Shown: positions 22,118 through 35,020 of the stretch, one piece after another | Position numbering within the stretch: position 1 is the stretch's first letter | Layout: every line of letters begins with the position of its first letter | Assembly: GCF_000143535.2 (NCBI RefSeq) | Contig: NC_037316.1 | Coordinates: forward strand, 372,001 to 436,000 | Source of the DNA: Botrytis cinerea B05.10 | Taxonomy: Eukaryota; Ascomycota; Leotiomycetes; Helotiales; Sclerotiniaceae | Direction: 5' to 3' | Length of the DNA: 64,000 nt | The notes under the pieces: model-generated | What the model was told of the DNA's origin: nothing | What the model saw: only the letters and a program-made list of their open reading frames with translations | Database searches by the model: none | Made by a program: the position numbers and the translations under genes

Positions 22118-23533
22118 TCATTCACCCCCTCCCAGTAAGCTCAACAGAGGTTCCTCGTTGAGAGGAAGCTCTAATGGGGTTTTGGCCACGTCCAAATTGA
22201 ATGGCACAATCGTGGTATCCGACGACTTGCGAGATTGCTTCTTATGAGCAAACAGCTCAGCTAGATATTTCAACCACAAAGGAGTAGAAGCTGTGATTGT
22301 CGCAGAGTGGTCCAGTCCCGGGTATCTAACCAAATGCGCAACATTGCCTGCTTTCACGGTTTCCTGGAATGACGTCAAGGTGCTTTCAGGGAGAACCGAA
22401 GTATCGTTCCATCCCTGAATGATCAATATTGGCTTCGAAGCTCGATCACCTTGTGCTGGGGCGTTCATATCCTGAAATTTTTTGAAAAGTTCATCATTCG
22501 CAGGTGTTCCATTAGCGACTACGAACTGGTCCCGTGGCAAGTCTAGGGAGAGGCCCATGAAAGCCAAAGTACAAGACTGCATTATATTGGCCAACTCCAC
22601 CCGCTTGTTCATCCCATAGGCCAAAAATGGCGACGTGTAATTGGGAAAGATTGCTTTGAGGCCGTAAATAACTTGGCCCAATTCGGCAGTAACGACAAAC
22701 TGATGAAAATCAGGACGAGGGACTATGCGTTCGAAGGTCTCGACCGCCATGTCAAAAATCTTGGATCCGGGAGATATGGCAACTGTTCCAAGATATCCAG
22801 AGGTATGGTTTTGTATAAGAGGGTGCTCCGATAGCTTCCACACGGCGCCACCACCTTGAGAATGCCCCAAACTCGCCCATTCTTTTGTGAACACACCGGG
22901 AAATGCTTTCCGAGCTGCCTGGATGGAATAGAGTACATCATTGGCATGAGCCGTGTAAGCACTGTATTTGTGTAAGGTATGGTTGTTGCCGAGACCGGCG
23001 TAATCGGTGGCTACAACAGCATAGCCACTATACAACAATTGAGCCCAGCTATTATAGTTGAAAAGACTTGGGGAAGATGATGGCGCGCATCCTCGATGAA
23101 CACCAAGTGTACCGTGGGCATAGGCGACAAGGGGAAACTGACTCCCATTTGCTGGTGAGGCAAAAGGAAATGCTATGAAGCCACTCGATGGTACGATACT
23201 ACCATCTAAGTCTATGGAAGTATACTGAAATCGAAAAGTTGCAGTGCCATCGGGTATGCTCAGGGCAGAGCTATCGACTGGTTGCAGTTTTAGAAGGTCG
23301 CCTGGAGCAGAGGAAGAGAAATTGTTTGCTGTACTGTAGAAATCAAAGTCGAATTCTGTACCGACGGTTTCGAGGTCGGCAGTATTAGATATGGATAGGA
23401 TTGCTTGACAGGACGCATTACACCCATATGATTGGAGCTCAACTATGCTGACATTGAAGTTTGATGCTTGGCCGGTTGCTGATCTCGCTGGTAATGCCAG
23501 ATATAGAAAGGAAAGAATTGTAATGATGATCAT
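22118..23533 (-). CDS. Secreted LIP-family lipase / alpha/beta hydrolase, 471 aa
   Basis: Intronless ORF. I start at 23533 because MIIITILSFLYLALPARSA then reads as a clean signal peptide; the same frame is open 27 codons further upstream (to 23614), but that extension would bury the signal sequence. The nucleophile elbow GHSQGG (in WASLGHSQGGGAVW) and oxyanion-side motif AYAHGTLGVHRGCAPS match fungal secretory lipases (PF03583, Candida LIP type). The acid and base are likely in IIQGWNDTSV and GLDHSAT near the C-terminus. Cysteines NASCQA, RGCAPS and QSCTLAF could form disulphides. Many N-glycosylation sites (NHT, NGT, NDT) fit an extracellular enzyme. Substrate is uncertain within the family (lipids or other esters). 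A TATATAA lies 68 bp upstream of the chosen ATG. Confidence 0.87.
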   Translation of the reverse strand: MIIITILSFLYLALPARSATGQASNFNVSIVELQSYGCNASCQAILSISNTADLETVGTEFDFDFYSTANNFSSSAPGDLLKLQPVDSSALSIPDGTATFRFQYTSIDLDGSIVPSSGFIAFPFASPANGSQFPLVAYAHGTLGVHRGCAPSSSPSLFNYNSWAQLLYSGYAVVATDYAGLGNNHTLHKYSAYTAHANDVLYSIQAARKAFPGVFTKEWASLGHSQGGGAVWKLSEHPLIQNHTSGYLGTVAISPGSKIFDMAVETFERIVPRPDFHQFVVTAELGQVIYGLKAIFPNYTSPFLAYGMNKRVELANIMQSCTLAFMGLSLDLPRDQFVVANGTPANDELFKKFQDMNAPAQGDRASKPILIIQGWNDTSVLPESTLTSFQETVKAGNVAHLVRYPGLDHSATITASTPLWLKYLAELFAHKKQSRKSSDTTIVPFNLDVAKTPLELPLNEEPLLSLLGGGE

Positions 23534-24355
23534 GATGGTAGAGTGAGTATGTACAGTTTGATAAAGATGGTGATTGGAAGGAGACGAGAAAAGAGTACAC
23601 TTATATATGCTCAAAGATTTAGCAGAGCATCCTCAGGTCGGAACCTGCGGACGTTAAGTTCATGTAGTTCTCCTTTCGTTAAAGTTTAATTAATGATGGC
23701 TAACGCTGTAAGTGTTATGAGAATGATCCATATATCCAAAAAGAATATTGCATGTCCTGCGAATTTCAATTTCCTCATGATCTACCCAACTTTCTCTTCG
23801 CGCAGAACGAGCCTTGCTATTTGCGATAGTAATATGGGAGTTCACTCACAAGGCCAGCTCGTACGCCATTTAAAGTGGATCGGTACATACGAATAAGAAC
23901 CGAAGTTTTGCCGTCGTATGGACATCGTATGGACATCGTAGGAACATTAGCTGAGTCTACGCATGTGCTGCACTTCAGGAAGATTTACAGAGCAATGGCC
24001 GTCTTAATGGTCTGATTTGAGGTTTGGCATCGAATCGGCCTACATGTACAGTCGGATCGTAGTTGCTGCAGTAACGCAAGCATTTATGAATCAATTTCTG
24101 AGATTGATTTTGCGATGTCATACGGTGAGCTAAATGGGTCTTCATTTTCTTCTTCGGCTTCATTTGGGAGTGGAGTATCAGGGACAACAGAATCGTTTAG
24201 TGGTTTTTGAGAATTTAGAAATGAAGAGGAGTTGAATATTGGAGATAGAAGGATTCTGGAAGGTACTGTGAATGTGAATATGAATGCCTCGCTTTATTTT
24301 TTGGTCTTCTGATGCGGGACACCAAGGCTTGTTTAAATTTTACAAGTATGAAAGA
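23534..24355. other. Promoter of the lipase gene and 3' flank of the oxidoreductase
   Basis: No gene seen. A short tandem CGTATGGACAT repeat lies at about 23914-23940. The part nearest 23600 is the core promoter of the lipase. Confidence 0.5.
23601..23607 (-). promoter_or_regulatory. TATA box of the secreted lipase
   Basis: TATATAA on the minus strand, 68 bp upstream of the chosen lipase ATG. It fits a core promoter and supports the downstream ATG (23533) over the far upstream one at 23614, which would lie before the TATA box. Confidence 0.5.
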
Positions 24356-26020
24356 TTATATGAGACGGGGAAGCTCGTGGATGCTGCTTTGAGCAACCCT
24401 TTTGGAAGAGCAAATAAACTCCTCTGGAAACCAGTCGCTGACTACTCCATCTGGTTTCCAGATCTGCCCATTAGAATTGACATTTTCGCGACCGAGAACC
24501 TGGAGTGCAACAGCCACCCCGCTTAGCCAGGTGGTAACCATGCCTGATCCGTTGAATCCTGCTGCTATCCACTCTGCTGGCGCAGCGTTTGTATTCGCAG
24601 TGACCTGCTTGTTTCCTACGTTCACAGCACGCTTGGTTAGACTTGGTGAAAGTTTTCCTACGAGAGGCATGAAGTCACAAGTTAGTCCCATAGCACCGGT
24701 CCACATACTTTTAACGATAGAGCCATTGGCATCTTCTCCCCAAAAACTGGAGCGGAAAGATACCGGAAGTACACCTGCGAGATATGATCCGATGGGTTGT
24801 TCAATCTTGTCATCGTCCCATTGACCAACTTCATTTAAGCCGGTGCCATCCATGTGGACTGATCCACCTCCGGTCATAATCTCAGCCCCCAAACCATCCG
24901 TCGCATCGGGCTTTCCAGGCCGCTGCGTGATATATTCATAGTCTCGACTACCAACGATAGACCAAGAGATCTTACCATCGTAGTGAGGAAAAGATTTTCC
25001 TGGTCGTTGAGCAGACATGTGTCCACGCAGAGGAAAAAGTTTCCCAACCAATCCGGGTACTAGGTTTGCGGTGAAGGCTTCTGTTGCATGGACGACATGT
25101 GCGGCTGTGATGTCGCCCCGTGAGGTGTTCAGAAGGAAAGGACTATCTGGGTTACTCGTAGTTTGGATTGATTGCACCATGGTTCCTGTCTCGATAGAGA
25201 ACTGCTCTGGAAATTTTGATAGCAGAGCCGCATATATAGCAGTGACAAATCGATATGGCCATAATGCACCACTGGTGTAGGTAATCCCTCCATGGAACTG
25301 ACTACTGAAACCAAATTGCTGCGGAGATTTAGAAAGTGCTCTTTATTGGAGATTGTGCCGGGGGTTTACCTTCTGGACTGTCTCTCCGTCTAGAATCTCA
25401 ATTCCTTTGGCAAGCTCGGGTAGATCTTCTCGCAAGATACATAGCATCTCAGTAGCTTCTTTAAGCCTCTCCGCATCAGTGAAAGCATCCACTGTCGTAA
25501 CGTCTCGTGCTTCACCTTCTTTCAATCCTTCTTCTTTTGATAAGTTGAGGAGGAAAGGTCTATGCTTCAAATAAAACTCCAATATCTTTTGTGCACTTGC
25601 GGCTCCGAACCTATCCTTAAATTTTTTGTACTCATAGAAAGGGGCCACTTTGATATGTCCACCATTCCTGCCCGTTGCACCGCTACATATAGTCCGCCCC
25701 TCTAGAATAGCTACTTTTATTGGTCTCCCAATAGCCAGACATTCATTCAGGATGGTATATGCGACACTGGCTCCAGTCATACCAGACCCAATAATCACAA
25801 TATCTGCACGTGGAGCCAATTGCTCAGACTGAACATTTACAAGTTCAGGATGTAAAGGCTGCTGTTCCCAAAAAGAGCTTGTGGGATTTTCGTGGGGAAA
25901 TTTCACTCGAGTGATGCGATCAAGCAGCGCAGAAGCGGCCTTGTTGCTCTCGGCAATAATGGCAATGAGGCCCAAGATGCCGAAATAGCCATCTCGCAAG
26001 AGTGAGAACACAGAGCCCAT
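24356..26020 (-). CDS. FAD-dependent oxidoreductase (DAO family), 537 aa
   Basis: Two exons, 26020-25370 and 25318-24356, joined across a 51-bp phase-0 intron (GTAAAC...CCGCAG) to give 537 residues. A hydrophobic N-terminal segment precedes the dinucleotide-binding motif IVIIGSGMTGASVAYTIL (about residues 74-91) and the flavin-contacting GATGRNGGHIK. QFGFSSQFHGGITYTSGALWPYRFV and a C-terminal AAGFNGSGMVTTWLSG complete the DAO fold (PF01266). This branch is annotated variously as gamma-glutamylputrescine oxidoreductase-like or simply FAD-dependent oxidoreductase. It would oxidise an amine or amino acid using FAD and oxygen, but the substrate cannot be read from the sequence. It is transcribed in the same direction as the lipase about 0.8 kb downstream, with no sign of joint control. 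Confidence 0.88.
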
Positions 26021-27991
26021 TATTGTGTGTGCTGCGAATTCAGCAAGAAGGAGATTATTAAGGAGGGCTGCGGCAGATGTAGTTATCGAAGTTATAGTAC
26101 ATGTATATAAGTAAGAGTTGTGGCCCTAGCTTATCGTATGTACCTTAAGTGAGATTAGGCCAACCACCTCAATTTTGAATCACGAATTTGAATATTCTAT
26201 TGGAATGCGAATTTTGTACTTTTTTGATTCAAATTAAAGATACATATTTATATTGATGAAGATGATGATGATAGGTTTTATTAATATTGACATACCTTTC
26301 AATGTTTTAAAGTTATCCAAGCTAATTCAAGGGAAGATCGGTTCGCTCAAATTTGAGTACACCTCAATCTATAGCAAGAAGCATTTGTAAGATAATGTCA
26401 CGGGCTCGAGGTTTCACTAGCGTAGTAGGCGCTTAGTCGCCTTTGCTGAGATATAGTAAAGTTACATGGCACTTCCTTTCTTCCTTCCTTCTCCATAAAG
26501 TATCACATATAAGCTTGTACCAATCCCTTGCAGAGTGGTACAAAATCAACTCGAAACCCAAGAAACAAGGTTTATATTCAATCTATGATAATGATAGAAG
26601 AGCTCAAAAAATTATAAGAACTATAAAAAAATATCAAAAAAAGTAACGGATAACCTTCAAATGACAGAAAGTTTTCATGGCTTTGAATCGGTGTGAAAAA
26701 AGGATTGTCAAGTCAGTACAAGCTCCCTTGTTTCGTAATTTTTCTTCAAGATATATCTAATCATGATAACTGACTCTTGCTTTTGGTAGTTTTGGAAAGG
26801 AATGGAGACTTGACGATCAGTCTATTTATTTGAATTATGTGAGTAAGAGACAAAAAGTTTTTAATGGCTGTGCAGAGGTTAATGAGGATAAACTCAGGTT
26901 TATACAAAGGAAGTATGATCCCGAGGGAGAGTTTGAAAGGTTGTGGCCGGGGTATTTCAGACTTTGACTGGAGAATGATGGATGAGGATGGCCGATGAAT
27001 TCGGGATGAATTCGAGTTAGGTAATGAAAATCGACAATGAGTGGGCAAGATTTGCTATTTTGGGAGATCTAGATTGAACCGTCTTTTCAATTCAATTGAA
27101 TGAACCTGAATCTAGACTTTTCTCTAGAATCATTCTCATGCAAACAATCAGATTATTGGATCCTCGCAGATCTCGGAAGATCGAGGCACGCAGCCGTTCA
27201 ATGGCCACCATTTAGGTAACCTACCACAGCACGGGCACTGAGCCTCAATCCTGAATTACTCAATGCTTTCAACGGCAATTCATTGAATATACCGATCTAT
27301 TTCCAACCTGACTAGTTTACGTTACATTTCCCATGTGAGTCAAGCTTTTCATTCGCGCTTGTCGTTTCACCCACTCATTTTCGGGTTCGCTAAACACATC
27401 CCCTGAAATTAATGCTAGCCAATCAAATGATTCACAACACGAGTCTTTCAGACGAGATAATTTTACTAAGCGCCAACGTCATGTTTGAGCTTCATGCTGT
27501 GTATTTTCCATTTATTGGATGGGAAAACTTGAGTGGGAACTACAATAAACTGTGGTGAAATCGTACAGCAAATACACTAGTTGTCTATTTACCTGTCGAT
27601 CTGGTGGAGTTCTGGAAAGGCGCCAAGTTTGTAATGCAGTGCACTGGTTTTGGGTCGCAGTCCCGGTCATGTTCATTGAGATTTCGAGTATATAGAATCA
27701 GTCGAGACTTTTGGTAACATGATTTCAATTTCCATATTCTACTCATCGTTCGTTTTCCTATTTTCAATTCCATTCATTGTTTCGTATCTTGTCTGTCATT
27801 GATTATTTCCTTCTTTTTCTTTTTCCTTTCACAACTTTCTTTGCTAAATTGTTAATCATTAATTTTGGTACCAAAAATTTGCAATCTTTCACATATTTAT
27901 CAGTCTATAACCCTAGTACACATCTAGCTTTTCTTTTCCTCCTAAAAATCCTTCCCACGAAACAATTCTTAGAAGTATCATTTCTACAATC
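26021..27991. other. Intergenic region between oxidoreductase and Ser/Thr-rich protein
   Basis: AT-rich, with no credible gene. The short ORFs here lack any family signature. A TTATATAC TATA-like element on the minus strand (about 26102-26109) lies about 85 bp upstream of the oxidoreductase ATG. The T-rich stretch at 27780-27990 just before the next ATG is probably its promoter and leader. Confidence 0.4.
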
Positions 27992-30292
27992 ATGAAGGTC
28001 TCTCATCCACTCTCTTTTTTTAGTACAATTTTTCTTTCTCATCTTGTTGCGGCTGGTCCGTTGTGGCGCAACGGAACAAGTAGGAAGTAAGTAAACTTCT
28101 CTCTCACCCCAGGTCACTTTGCCTGGTTGGTTCCTGGATCGATAGTTCTGATTTGATTTGGCCTTAGCTTTATACGAGGGGGTGAAATGAAAAGGGATAG
28201 CGTTACTCCCATCGCGATCACTATTCTCCCTGGGACGGTCACTTCTTCGATAATTAGTTCTACAGCCCAAGCCGAATCCACATTGTCGATAGAAGGCACC
28301 ACCTCATCCAGTGCAACAGATTTTACTTCACAGTCGAGCAGCACTTCAGCTACGTCCATAATACAGTCAACGGAGGGATCGAAAACGACAGAATCAAAAA
28401 GCGAAACGAGTACTTCTAGCACATCATCGGACAAAGATAGCGAATCGAGGACTCCATTGAGCTCTGCTACATCCTCGCAACTAGCGTCTTCAATTATATC
28501 GAGTATAGGAGGTACAGCTCCAATACGATCAAGTAAATTTTCAAATACCGAAACCATAGATGGAAGCGTAATTCCAACAGCAACAGAATTAACTCTTACT
28601 CTTACTCCACCACTAAGCACGACGTCCACCGGGGAATCTTCTACGAAAACTGAAACGTCAAGTCAGGGTACATCTGGGTCACAAGCTGGTTCTCCCTCAT
28701 CGAGCCAGGTTTCTTTGCAGACTACAACGTTTGCGCCTCTTCCTACTAGTTTACCTGAGAGTAGTCTTACGGCAAAAGCTTCTTCAATCTCATTAGATAG
28801 TTCGACACTGTCAAGTCTGAATTCTGTTCAAACTACAACATTCCCACCGCTTCCAACTACCTCTCCAAAGGCTACTACAACCCCAGAAAGCTCTTCGGGT
28901 GAAACTTCCGAGGAATCTCCGTCAGCAACTCCATCATTCGTGCCGACATTAGCGTCGAGTATATCGGTCGCACCATTCGGTACTGGAAACTCAAGCACGG
29001 CAGCTACAAGAGATCCGCAAAGTTCCGGTAATTCGGATCCGAGTTTTGGATCCACGATTGGCATCACAACGGAAGCTTCTAGGATCACTTCTCAAACTTC
29101 TATAAGGGAAACTCTGTCACCTACCACGGTTTCATCAAGCACTGCTAGAGCTTCAAGCTTGGTGGAAAGTGTCGTTTCGACGAAGGAGACTTCAAAGGTT
29201 ACCGCTCAACCGCAAAGCACTATCGTGCAGTCTAGTGTGGTGGCGACTCAAGACTTAGGATCTACCACAGGAGCATCTGACCAGAGCATTACTTCTCAAA
29301 CCTCAATAACTGGAGGTCTGTCTCAGGCGACATCGATTGATTCTTTACAGACAACATTTGTATACGTAACCACAGTTGTTCCATCTTCAACTCTTGGAGT
29401 TATCCCATCCTCCTCCTTTTTATCCAAAACCTCAACTTCATCTACACAAGTAGAAACCACAAAACTTGAATCTTCAACGTCTTCACTCTCTTCGGCAGCA
29501 ATAACCATCAAGACAACCGAGGTCTCTTCGTTTTCCTCGTCCTCGGAGCCACAAACTACAATTTTCCCCGAACTGCCCACTACACAACCTGCTAGCACAG
29601 CAGAGATTCTCGTAACAACCGTAACATTATCAAGTAAAACAAGAGAATCGTCTTCTAGCACCACAAGAATATCCACTGCTACATCCTCCATCAAAGAAAC
29701 CACAACCCAAGAATCTATCCTCCTACCTACCACCCAGATCACTACAGCTGATATCCCCAAGACTACTGAAATAGCCAGCACTATAATCATCAGTGTAAAC
29801 ACTGCAGATTCGAATAATGGAGCTGTAACTGTATTGACTATCATTCCTGTTACTGCTGGTTCAGGTTCAGGTTCAGGTTCTGGCAACGACATTGGCATTA
29901 CCAAAACCAATGATGGAAACAGCGGCGCAACCACATCCATAACCATCATCAACGCCAGTCCCACTGCTACCACAACAGCCGGAGGTAATGGCCTAGCGCA
30001 GACTACACTTACTCTTTCGCCCACTTCTCCGACTCCCATACGCACGTCTATTTCTATATCTACAAGTGCGATAGATGATGGGTTGAGAACAACGACGTTG
30101 AGTATTTCACCACCGAAGGAAACGATTATTACTAGTGCGCCTGCAGCGACGACTACGAGCGCGGCAGAGAATATTTGTTTGGGGGTGGGAGGGGATGGGA
30201 AACTTACTAGTATGAGTAGCTGTGTGGGTGGCGCGACGGAGACGGTGAGTGTGACGGTTACGGCAAGAGAGACGGTTACGGTTAGGGGGTAG
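27992..30292 (+). CDS. Secreted Ser/Thr-rich repeat protein, 739 aa
   Basis: Exon 1 (27992-28086) encodes MKVSHPLSFFSTIFLSHLV plus AAGPLWRNG, a clear signal peptide. An 81-bp intron (GTAAGT...CCTTAG) joins it in frame to exon 2 (28168-30292), giving 739 residues. The mature protein is almost entirely Ser/Thr with Glu, Ala and Pro, and would be heavily O-mannosylated. It has spaced copies of a QTTTFxPLPTT motif (QTTTFAPLPTS, QTTTFPPLPTT, QTTIFPELPTT) and a (GS)n spacer. The C-terminus has a small Cys pair (NICLGVGG...MSSCVGG) and ends TVSVTVTARETVTVRG with no GPI-attachment signal. It is probably a cell-wall or matrix protein. An earlier acceptor at 28112 would hit a stop, so 28168 was chosen. 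It converges on the UstYa gene with 615 bp between the stop codons. Confidence 0.8.
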
Positions 30293-30907: not shown

Positions 30908-31967
30908 TCACAAAATCTCCATTCCATCCTGTCCATCATCCTCATGATTATCAAACCACCTAAAGATCTCCTTTGCCTCATGCGACATATGTCTAACCGG
31001 CTCATTCAGCGGTCTCCTCAACGCCCCAAACTTTTCCAACGGCACCGCAATCTCATCATGATACTCTAGTATCGCTTCAAAATCCCTACATTTATGATTG
31101 ATATTGAAATCCGGCACTGCATTTTCCTGCATATCCACCCAGTAATGACCATACGTATCCACATTTCCCTGACACATCAGATTCTGCAGCAGCGCATACA
31201 CGCAATGTGAAGCGTGCAGTTGGTGGTATTTTCCCATCTGTTCGTCAGGATAGTAGTATGCTACGTTCCAATAGAGATGCATACGCAATCGGTTGAGACA
31301 GTGAATTTGATGAAAGACGTCGATGCGTCCGATGAAGGCGTCAGGGCCGAAACCAAAAGATTCGGGAAATTTGGCGTACATATCTGGATCTTTTCCTTGG
31401 TTGACAAGATCTTGTCGGGATAGGGGAATGGGATTTTGCGTCTCGATACGAGCCCATGCTGCATCGACTTCGGGAGATGGGGGTTTTCGATAGATGGATT
31501 CGTCCTCGCGCTCTAGAAATGTGCCGTTGAGTCGCCAGGTTGAAAGCGGAATCTCGATTGCGTCGAGAATTGGAGCTGTGGGTCTTTTTATGAGATACAT
31601 CTTCAGTGCTGGAGAATTCTTGGATCTTACATTTTTCTGAAACTTGTTTCAACGCCCAATTTCGCTCCCTTCCACCTGGGACTTGCTTCCAATTAAGCAT
31701 GGCAGCGGTGAACAAGTACAAAGACAGACAAAAGAAAAGACCATTCAGCCAGCCCAGACATCTCACAAATGAGTGATGCCTATGGCAGCAATTAGTTTCT
31801 CCCTTTTCAGCATGTTCAAATGAATCATCGCCGACAGAAAGGCGGTTCAGAAGTCGATCTTCATCTTGATATTCGTTATCCGAGCTTACATGTGAGGGGT
31901 CTAATTCTGCATATGTAAATGATTTATTGCGCTTGAATACATGTAATATGCGTTGATTGAAACCCAT
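30908..31967 (-). CDS. UstYa/DUF3328-family oxidase-like protein, 334 aa
   Basis: Two exons, 31967-31631 and 31575-30908, with a 55-bp intron (GTAAGA...CCACAG). The splice joins ALKQVSEK to SPILDAIEIPLS, which restores the conserved family block. Layout: cytosolic N-terminus with FTYAELDP, one membrane segment at about residues 70-92, then the DUF3328 domain. Both diagnostic motifs are present: HQIHC at about 201-205 (in DVFHQIHCLNRLRMHLYW) and HASHC at about 233-237. The block KPPSPEVDAAW is also typical. UstYa and UstYb relatives act in maturing fungal ribosomal peptides (ustiloxin, phomopsin, asperipin types), where they are implicated in oxidative macrocyclisation at Tyr or Phe side chains. 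The gene lies 1.96 kb from a divergent secreted-repeat precursor whose core contains Tyr, so it is the obvious candidate tailoring enzyme. A genome-scattered UstYa paralogue with another substrate is the alternative. Confidence 0.88.
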
Positions 31968-33925
31968 TTTGAAGAACGGAGAGGGTGGGTATGCAAAAAG
32001 TGAAAAGTATAATGCGGATATGAAAGGTAAATGATAGAGTTGCTGTTTTCAAACTGAATGTAGAATATGTCTTAGTCGATGTGAACAACTACTTGCCAAT
32101 AAATTATAATTTGCTCTTCTAGAACCAACTACAAGTGACACTAAATTTCAAACGTTCGATAATCTCAAAACGTTACACTTACTAGTCATGACTCCCTCAC
32201 TCCCTCACTCCCTCCCCCGCATTCTCTCGAGATAGGAGAAAACCATTATCCTCTCTTTCAGCCAAGAAAGGATAAGCCATATACTGCACAATTATCTATA
32301 TGTAACTGATCGACGAATATGCAAGCCAACTCATGCAGATAGGAATATGCAAGACGACATCTGTAGTCCCGGAATCGAAGTTTCGGCTAACTTCTCCCGT
32401 TCGCGTGGCAAACTTTGTGTTTCTCGTTTGGTTGTACAGGTTGTGTTCGACCTTTAGTTGGATGAGAAGAGATCTTATATATGCTTATCTGCCGGTAGAT
32501 TGGATTTTTGTTCCTTGTATCAATGATGATTTTGCAAGCTGTGGGTAAATCTTCCGAGTGTATACTTACGCGAATTTGAAGAATTGACATTTATCGGATC
32601 CAAATTTTGAATTTGGAAGCATCGCCAATAGATCAGCAGCAGAGAACAAAAATCAAGATATATTTTCATCTTTATCCCAATAAGCTGTTTGCTAGATGTG
32701 AAATCTACGTTATTCGTAACTCGGAGATAGATATCTGAGTGACATTACTGTTTGTATAAATCAATCATATTTTATACAGTGAATAAACGGATTGGTGACA
32801 GATAAAAGATACACGACAGTGAGATAAGTGGCATCATAACGGATGACCTACTCTCAGCCAATGCTATATAAACCATGTAAACACTATATCCCCTTCTGGA
32901 CATGTCCAAAACACTCAAAGTCTGTAAAAACTAGTATAGAAAGCAAACATCAGTTCTAGTCACATCAAGTCACCTAAAAAAAAACACAAGTTAGACCAGT
33001 GTAGATCTCTCCTATCTATGATGATCAACGAGATCCTCCCACCCCTATTCCAATCAACCCCGCTTACTCCCCGCGTAATCCTCGTTTGCACACCCGTATG
33101 TTCTCCAGAGATTCTCCTCATGCTCCTACCTCACGCTTACTTTTCGGCATGTAATACAAATCAACTCTATTCTCGTAAGGGTGTGAAGTCACTCATGCAT
33201 GCAGATATATGTCCAAAAACGACGTATAACCGATTACTTACACGAGTTGTTTCAGCAGACACAAAAAACGTATTGATGATACAGAATAACAAATTGAGGC
33301 ATTTCTTCAACGCTTGCTTCGCCACGATTCTCGTCGCAGCGGAGATTTTTCAAATTTCTCACAATTACCTGTTTTGACATGTATGTCGTCTTTTCGGCAA
33401 ACCTCGAGTTGCCGATTTAGTTTGAAACGATACTAGGATCCAACTCACAGTTCGGTACATCTTTATGATTCCTCGAATCATGATTGAGTTTGATTTTGCG
33501 TGATGCATACATTATCCGATAGACTCCACGACTCTTTGTTACAAATTATGTCGGCTGTGCGTGTAGTTGTACGTTTAAGAACGTATTACAGCCCTCTTAT
33601 TTGTGGGGACAATCTAATCTTGTATCAATAAACGAAAAAAAAAGATTGAAAGCAAGATAACAGTAAGTTACAAGACTTCAAAACATGTCACTCTGTAGAA
33701 TAGTTTTGTGCAGCGCCTTCGGATCTCCCCGTCGGCTTTGCAGGTAGACCGAAAGACTTACGCCTTTCATTGCTCTGAAAGTTAAAAAAATATCTATATA
33801 AACAGTCTATAACTAGAGAACTGGCATTACTCTTCTCAACCATCCAATCCAACATACATTCTTTCAAGTCAAACTCAAATATATATACCCCAGAACGCCC
33901 AAAATCCTCAAAACACCTCTTCAAA
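31968..33925. other. Divergent intergenic region of UstYa and peptide-precursor genes
   Basis: Shared upstream region of the two divergent genes. The only longer ORF (33018-33377) has no signature and is not called. A CTCCCTCA triplication lies at about 32193-32214. The TATA box listed separately belongs to the precursor. Confidence 0.45.
33795..33802 (+). promoter_or_regulatory. TATA box of the repeat-peptide precursor
   Basis: TATATAAA, 124 bp upstream of the precursor ATG; a second TATATATA lies at about 33880-33887. This is consistent with a strongly or conditionally expressed gene. Confidence 0.5.
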
Positions 33926-35020
33926 ATGGTTCGAATGACCGCGATCCTGGCCACGGCTATTCTCAGTCTCGCATATGCTGCTCCGCTGAGCCCTGCTCAA
34001 GGTCTATATAATTTCTCTCTGAAGTTAAGAATATCATCACTGACTTTAAACAGAAGAAGTTAAACCACGAGGTGTGTTGGATGCTACGTATGCTCAGTTG
34101 GATTGGTTTATGGCTAAACGTGATCCAGAGCTATCTTATGTGAATAGCCGTGCAGCGGAATTGAGCTATGTCAATTCTAAGCGTGAACCGGAACTTAGCT
34201 ACGTTAACTCCAAACGCGCTGAACTCAGCTATGTGGTATGTTTCTCAAGAGATAGTGCGGAATTTAGCTCATCGAAGTGTAGAATTCGAAACGTGAACCG
34301 GAGTTGAGCTATGTGAATTCCAAGCGCGAGCCAGAGCTAAGCTACGTAGTAAGTATCATAGAAAACCTTTTCAGTATCCAGCTCACATAAACACAGAATT
34401 CCAAGAGAGAGCCCGAGCTCAGCTATGTGAACTCCAAACGTGAAGCCGAGCCAGAGCTCAGCTACGTGAATTCAAAGAGAGAGCCAGAGCTTAGCTATGT
34501 GGTTTGTTGACACTTCCCATTATTCAGTAGACCCTCGTTGACAGGTTTTCAGAACTCCAAGCGGGAGCCTGAGCTGAGCTATGTGAATTCGAAGAGAGAG
34601 GCAGAATTGAGCTACGTCAACTCCAAACGTGAAGCCGAGCTCAGCTATGTCAATTCTAAACGTGAAGCCGAGCCTGAGCTTAGCTACGTCAACTCCAAAC
34701 GTGAAGCCGAGCTCAGCTATGTCAATTCTAAACGTGAAGCCGAGCCTGAGCTTAGCTACGTCAACTCCAAACGCGAGCCTGAGTCGAGCTATGTGAATTC
34801 AAAGAGAGAAGCAGAGCTTAGCTATGTCAACTCCAAACGTTCTCCTGAACTAAGCTACGTGGTATATTCAACCCCAACCCTAACCCCATCTCAGTCCTAT
34901 TCACTAACCTCCCCTTTCTAGAACTCCAAGCGGGAGCCCGAACTCAGCTATGTCAACTCCAAGCGTGAAGCCGAAGCCGAACTCAGCTACGTCAACAGCC
35001 GGCACACACACAAGGAATAG
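33926..35020 (+). CDS. Secreted Kex2-type repeat precursor: 20 copies of an ELSYVNS core
   Basis: Six exons (33926-34001, 34054-34235, 34283-34348, 34397-34501, 34553-34861, 34922-35020) encode 278 residues. Signal peptide MVRMTAILATAILSLAYA is followed by a leader of about 35 residues ending FMAKR. Then come 20 repeats whose invariant part is SYVNS (ELSYVNS in nearly all; one ESSYVNS). Units end in Lys-Arg, the Kex2 site, except units 1 and 20, which end in a single Arg. The tail is HTHKE. Each core is preceded by EP, EA, DP, SP, AA, EAEP or EAEA, i.e. X-Pro/X-Ala dipeptides removable by a Ste13-type dipeptidyl aminopeptidase, as in yeast alpha-factor; unit 4 has a single Ala. Introns 2-5 all interrupt YV|NS in phase 0. 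The first donor (GTCTAT) is weak. It could be a dikaritin-type RiPP precursor matured by the neighbouring UstYa protein, or a secreted signalling peptide. It lacks Cys, unlike the WCxxPGQxC alpha pheromones of related fungi. Confidence 0.9.
34122..35002 (+). repeat. Tandem coding repeat array of the peptide precursor
   Basis: Twenty imperfect units, mostly 33 or 39 nt, are interrupted by four introns of 47-60 bp at the identical repeat position. Exons carry 4, 2, 3, 9 and 2 SYV-terminated units. Nearby units in exon 5 are nearly identical at the DNA level (alternating EAELSYVNSKR and EAEPELSYVNSKR), implying recent duplication or conversion. Codons for the same residues differ between distant units, so the protein core is kept under selection. 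Confidence 0.88.

Follow-up and report, generated by a model that had tools for sequence, protein, structure and literature searches.

We found a predicted secreted repeat precursor, encoded on the plus strand at 33926..35020, next to a divergent gene for a UstYa-family (DUF3328) oxidase (30908..31967, minus strand), and this pair likely specifies a new secreted peptide signal. We hold with moderate confidence that the peptide ELSYVNS is processed in the manner of alpha-factor and that its tyrosine is oxidised by the adjacent UstYa protein. This reading is preferred because both of its marks, Ste13-type spacers and a UstYa neighbour, are strong and adjacent at this one locus, as judged from the sequence. 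From the DNA we infer the splicing and secretion of the precursor, the order of its processing, the action of the UstYa protein on it, the resulting chemistry, and the role of the product. Kex2 and Kex1 would cut the predicted secreted precursor at Lys-Arg, a Ste13-like dipeptidyl aminopeptidase would remove X-Ala/X-Pro dipeptides to leave ELSYVNS, and the neighbouring oxidase would likely cross-link the sole tyrosine of this peptide oxidatively, yielding up to 20 modified copies of the signal per precursor. The product would act as an extracellular fungal signal, either developmental or host-directed. The locus lies in a window (the whole stretch of DNA that was analysed, 64,000 nucleotides) that corresponds to C7:372001-436000 of a genome of 42,630,066 bp in 18 contigs.

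The precursor gene, of the KEP (Kex2-processed repeat protein) type, has six predicted exons, with the ATG at 33926 and a stop codon ending at 35020; under this splice model, the coding sequence of 837 nt is translated into 278 aa with 20 SYVNS cores. Exon 1 (33926..34001) encodes a signal-peptide-like start (MVRMTAILATAILSLAYA-APLSPAQ), in which the typical n, h and c regions of a signal peptide can be recognised by eye. Exon 2 (34054..34235) carries the remainder of the leader, which closes with the Lys-Arg of LDWFMAKR (residues 47-48), followed by cores 1-3 and by core 4 up to SYV. Exon 3 (34283..34348) contributes the NS of core 4 and further repeats; like exons 4 (34397..34501) and 5 (34553..34861), which also consist of repeats, it has SYV at its end. 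Exon 6 (34922..35020) contains the final repeats, the C-terminal SRHTHKE and the stop. The five introns measure 52, 47, 48, 51 and 60 nt; each has GT-AG ends and a branch-like YTNAY beginning 14-18 nt upstream of its 3' end. A spliced six-exon gene with a leader ending in KR had been proposed in an earlier, sequence-only reading of this DNA, and both proposals hold under this splice model, with exact coordinates and an open frame. The sequence TATATA occurs 131 bp and 46 bp upstream of the ATG.

It should be noted that four of the five introns (window 34236-34921) split four different repeats at one and the same codon (SYV|NS, phase 0). The mutual sequence similarity of these four introns is not above that of shuffles. 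Either the introns of a duplicated ancestral intron-bearing repeat have since diverged, or the other units have lost theirs.

SYVNS is present in all 20 cores and ELSYVNS in 19 of them, core 16 being ESSYVNS; thus, the earlier count of 20 cores stands, as does SYVNS as their constant part, but one of the supposed 20 copies of ELSYVNS is a variant. Every core contains tyrosine, and none contains Cys or Trp. The cores had been described as nearly all bounded by Lys-Arg, which agrees with a KR directly after 18 of the 20 (R-A follows core 1 and R-H follows core 20), i.e., with the arrangement of repeated cores between Kex2 sites that characterises KEPs. Among the 20 SYVNS copies there are zero amino-acid differences, compared to a pS of 0.78 at synonymous positions; a nominal pN of 0.05 stems from AGC versus TCN serine codons. 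Because the residues are identical across 20 copies while the synonymous sites differ heavily, the repeat is not a product of chance, and what has been conserved, by this measure, is the peptide rather than the DNA. A search of this genome for the repeat gave five matches, all inside the precursor gene.

Relatives were sought in protein searches in which the best 7,996 and the best 7,995 candidates were scored. The 278-aa query retrieved P0001, a JGI-sourced protein of 157 aa (E 1.3e-4), which has three EELMYVNS cores behind the spacers AP, EAEP and DASP (X-A/X-P in all three) and shares the leader motif AQLD with the precursor. P0001 also carries five GIAYD/GIPYD-type repeats (GI[AP]Y; GIAYDAAKF-like), and its two kinds of core suggest that two products may be made from one gene. 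A profile built from the precursor and P0001 returned six proteins at E <= 10, P0001 among them. P0123 (an ENA record) is an 88-aa ORF nearly identical to precursor exon 2 with a continuation into intron 2, and one of its cores is SYVDS; P0124 from Aspergillus hancockii (E 1.5e-4) has the four repeats AYANS, ACVNS, TYVNS and VYPNS; the further profile matches P0125, P0126 and P0002 were not counted as relatives. Y-x-N-S is found in 8 of the 10 complete cores of P0001, P0123 and P0124 (3 + 3 + 4), the other two being CVNS and YVDS. The link to A. hancockii is weak, because the sequence is short and compositionally similar. P0001 and, weakly, P0124 suggest a wider YxNS family. In viral contigs, patterns for precursor relatives matched 1 and 10 stretches, none of which was confirmed.

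No full-length annotated copy of the precursor was found among the scored proteins (lengths of about 153-486 aa; profile matches of 88-335 aa). This would suit a decaying or untranscribed repeat without a product, a reading that we find scarcely credible in view of the identical residues of all 20 SYVNS copies despite the high pS, the GT-AG ends and near-constant branch-like motif of all five introns, and the relatives P0001, P0123 and P0124.

The precursor also matches the Pfam model PF16058 at 154 bits (cut-off 28.7), and we probed this model with eight artificial repeat peptides. A letter-permuted core gave no match, and the letters of the core therefore count; a GLSYVQS core scored 36 bits, KREPE with poly-Ala scored 16 bits, and a 9-residue repeat without the spacer gave no match. 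P0001 and P0124 were unmatched, and P0123 stayed under the cut-off. PF16058 appears to be a loose model of repeats with an 11-residue period, and we draw no function from the match. The model is also listed for an ORF from an algal culture (PMC7594059). Its name, 'Mucin-like', can mislead annotation.

One or two X-Ala/X-Pro dipeptides stand ahead of the core in 19 of the 20 units, as DP, AA, EP, EA, SP, EAEP or EAEA. This is the STE13 signature (X-A/X-P after a Kex2 site) described for alpha-pheromones (PMC6339444). Core 2, one of these 19, stands behind a lone Arg instead of Lys-Arg; the exception to the code is core 4, whose spacer is a single A and would leave AELSYVNS. Ste13-type trimming is thus predicted to give ELSYVNS from 18 units, ESSYVNS from one and AELSYVNS from one. 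Cores 1, 2 and 20 require a single-Arg cut on one side; exact ELSYVNS after trimming, with Lys-Arg flanking the unit at either end, is expected for 15 of the 20 units. The genome has one match to the Kex2 P-domain and one to the DPPIV_N (Ste13-type) domain. The computed m/z is 811.383 for linear ELSYVNS, 809.368 for its -2H form and 807.352 for its -4H form; peptides that keep an EP or EA dipeptide would be at 1037.479 and 1011.463, respectively.

The genome's own alpha-pheromone gene is on C1, where 14 of the 15 genome matches to the WCxxPGQxC pattern are clustered; 14 cores are present in it, and all 12 of the spacers read follow the X-Ala/X-Pro code. Because this gene sits elsewhere, and the core of our precursor has no Cys, identity with the mating pheromone was ruled out, as the sequence-only reading had anticipated from the composition of the core.

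The same spacers lend weight to the main rival, a linear, unmodified hormone-like signal that is processed as alpha-factor is, by Kex2, Kex1 and Ste13, while the UstYa protein serves something else. We consider this unlikely, though it has more behind it than the other rivals: the Ste13 code recurs in 19 of 20 units, as it does in the genome's alpha-pheromone; the signature has been tied to linear signals (PMC6339444); and the contig is without a tyrosinase match. Under the rules of two surveys (PMC6339444, PMC7329392), a Ste13 code speaks for a linear peptide, which counts against a UstYa cross-link. The evidence against this rival comes from the neighbouring gene, described below, and from the one invariant tyrosine of each core, the residue modified by UstYa-type enzymes (PMC7329392, PMC6514808). 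A yield of 20 copies per precursor would also suit a surface or structural peptide of the Rep1/repellent kind, i.e., a bulk product and not a signal; the precursor of Ustilago maydis Rep1 is processed by Kex2 into hypha-attached peptides (PMC6339444). We regard this as very improbable, since the core is, in our judgement, short and polar, and Rep1 does not have the Ste13 signature (PMC6339444).

The UstYa-family gene is the divergent neighbour of the precursor, with 1,958 bp (31968..33925) between the two start codons. It is composed of exon 1 (31631-31967), an intron (31576-31630, GTAAGA...CCACAG) and exon 2 (30908-31575), all on the minus strand; the intron was picked among alternatives, and the resulting protein of 334 aa agrees from end to end with a B. 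cinerea record. The exon-2 frame matches PF11807 with E 3.1e-48 (165 bits, cut-off 25). Identity to a protein of B. cinerea BcDW1 is 100% (rounded) over 334 aa, the listed representative differing at one residue; among the matches listed, identity is 92% to a B. aclada protein and 87% to P0005, a protein of 352 aa with a B. cinerea label. These matches place the DNA in Botrytis, most likely in B. cinerea. From the best 120 of 140 related proteins, 21 sequences were picked for alignment; there are two HxxHC motifs, in which H201, H204, C205, H233 and H236 are invariant among the 21 aligned sequences and C237 is nearly so. In a structure model of modest confidence (mean pLDDT 67), a single long N-terminal helix spans 64-94, and the two motifs are on two further helices. 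The neighbour thus combines a PF11807 score over the cut-off, the HxxHC motifs and, from the helix of the model, a predicted transmembrane anchor, by which the UstYa family is recognised. Among solved structures, no relative was found by sequence below E 0.27, and none by fold at E <= 0.001 (best E 1.7, for the model with mean pLDDT 67).

UstYa exons have 44 matches in the genome, in 32 places, and the neighbour of the precursor scores best. Roughly 0.3% of the genome falls no farther than 1,959 bp from a UstYa match, and the adjacency is therefore unlikely to be due to chance, although the figure was computed after the adjacency had been seen. This adjacency argues against an unmodified linear peptide, and the UstYa neighbour favours oxidation of the tyrosine in the core, the first of the two fates (Tyr cross-linking or a linear signal) that the sequence-only reading had offered. 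A Ser/Thr-rich open frame of 711 aa (stop to stop; window 28157-30292, plus strand), without a Pfam match, adjoins the UstYa gene.

The adjacent UstYa gene and the tyrosine in the core are also marks of dikaritins. An ordinary dikaritin-type secondary metabolite (a toxin, an effector or an antimicrobial), with X-A/X-P spacers arising by coincidence, would account for the adjacency, and dikaritin precursors of plant-pathogenic fungi have been discussed as effectors (Venturia, PMC9632046). We think this improbable, more so than the linear signal. None of 23 genome matches to tyrosinase is on this contig, a nearby tyrosinase being a feature of ustiloxin and phomopsin clusters and not of that of asperipin-2a. 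A transporter, a methyltransferase or a peptide-pathway peptidase was not found in 16 Pfam-scanned ORFs of 60 (at least 120 aa) in the window; the core has Y-V-N-S and not Y-x-I; and one code governs 19 of 20 spacers. The absence of further peptide-pathway genes from the 16 scanned ORFs, the departures of cores 1, 2, 4 and 20 from the regular pattern, and the SYVDS core of P0123 also weigh against the preferred reading.

Three other genes in the window were set aside as tailoring candidates. The convergent P450 gene (36550-38367, minus strand), with CYP51 and CYP3A chains as the best solved-structure matches of its product (E 8e-22 and weaker), is presumably an ERG5-type sterol enzyme. An FAD oxidoreductase (24356-26125, minus strand) and a lipase-like protein (22118-23632, minus strand) were considered distant and not typical.

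Elsewhere in the genome, UstYa and tyrosinase matches are co-located at C15:1390094-1399350 and C3:1780267-1781337, which are candidate ustiloxin-like clusters; a simple repeat rule, which skips intron-crossing repeats, found no precursor at these two places. The same rule found no KEPs beside UstYa genes in 30 loci (L006-L035, about 3.1-3.7 kb each). This result says little, because L006, the locus of the UstYa gene described here, was also empty, its precursor being outside the locus, and the rule crosses no introns.

For the preferred reading, alpha-factor-like processing with oxidation of the tyrosine, the candidate bond is between the oxygen of Tyr and the beta-carbon of the Asn two residues on. 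This is a guess, made because no core residues are more constant across the relatives than Tyr, Asn and Ser, and because the known Y-x-I cores have their bond between Tyr and Ile, whose place Asn holds here. More tentatively, and less probably than not, the peptide would be a signal formed through both pathways, with pheromone-like trimming and a single dedicated UstYa protein making a new Tyr-x-Asn linkage; the YxNS family (Botrytis, Aspergillus and other fungi) would then be a link between linear pheromones and cyclic RiPPs. The locus bears on the question of UstYa action on hormone-type peptides and predicts exact masses; its core, repeated 20 times with great regularity, belongs to a fungus of economic importance that is amenable to genetics.

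Full-text searches of the literature brought up no related peptide, among the matches listed, for a SYVNS, ELSYVNS or YVNS core, and the listed works on Botrytis dikaritins, UstYa proteins and RiPPs showed no mention of the precursor. To this extent, the core appears new, as the sequence-only reading had suspected; the KEP lists supplementing PMC7329392 and PMC6339444 fall outside that search and might include the precursor. The YVNS of a paper on plant peptides belongs to a rice lipid-transfer protein and is unrelated (PMC12349381), and a Trichoderma paper (PMC7099791) and a protease paper (PMC10885120) contributed nothing on the ELSYVNS core.

The two surveys keep Ste13-type precursors, proposed to be hormones, apart from UstYa-linked ones, thought to be cyclised at tyrosine (PMC6339444, PMC7329392). 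According to Le Marquer et al., toxic cyclic tetrapeptides and epichloecyclins have precursors that lack the STE13 signature, and KEPs that carry it point to hormones (PMC6339444). Umemura reports that yeast alpha-factors have no DUF3328 gene nearby, and that among fungal pheromones just three such genes were found in the vicinity (PMC7329392); this regularity for alpha-pheromones is broken here by the adjacent UstYa gene. The mixture has a looser precedent, since 17 of 76 pheromone-like KEPs of basidiomycetes have a DUF3328 gene in the vicinity (PMC7329392). Cyclisation at tyrosine depends on UstYa-type proteins (PMC6514808, PMC7329392, PMC12048977). Ustiloxins and phomopsins need a tyrosinase in addition (PMC7329392), whereas the asperipin-2a cluster, without tyrosinase, has a single UstY homologue, AprY, which is essential and for which closure of the two ether rings has been proposed (PMC6514808, PMC12048977).

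Compared to these systems, the precursor shares with KEPs many near-identical cores behind a putative secretion signal, split by Lys-Arg (PMC6339444, PMC7329392), and Botrytis is among the genera of KEP type G-5/P-1 (PMC7329392); however, ELSYVNS is not named in the main-text parts of either survey, and here Ste13 spacers occur together with a UstYa neighbour. With the dikaritins (ustiloxin, phomopsin, asperipin-2a), it has in common a repeat precursor beside a UstYa/DUF3328 gene and a tyrosine in the core, and with asperipin-2a the possession of one UstY homologue. It differs from them in having Y-V-N-S instead of Y-x-I-x or FYYTGY (PMC6514808, PMC7329392), which confirms the earlier remark that the core is unlike those of ustiloxin and phomopsin, and in its Ste13-type spacers and the absence of a tyrosinase from the contig. 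With ascomycete alpha-pheromone precursors, including the gene on C1, it shares Kex2 sites followed by X-A/X-P dipeptides in many copies, whereas it has no Cys and no WCxxPGQxC, and occupies a separate locus with a UstYa neighbour. The earlier suggestion of a secreted, Kex2-processed repeat precursor of the alpha-factor or dikaritin type is thus supported from both sides, by the X-Ala/X-Pro spacers and by the UstYa neighbour, and this two-gene locus joins pheromone-like and dikaritin-like marks that the two surveys sort apart (PMC6339444, PMC7329392).
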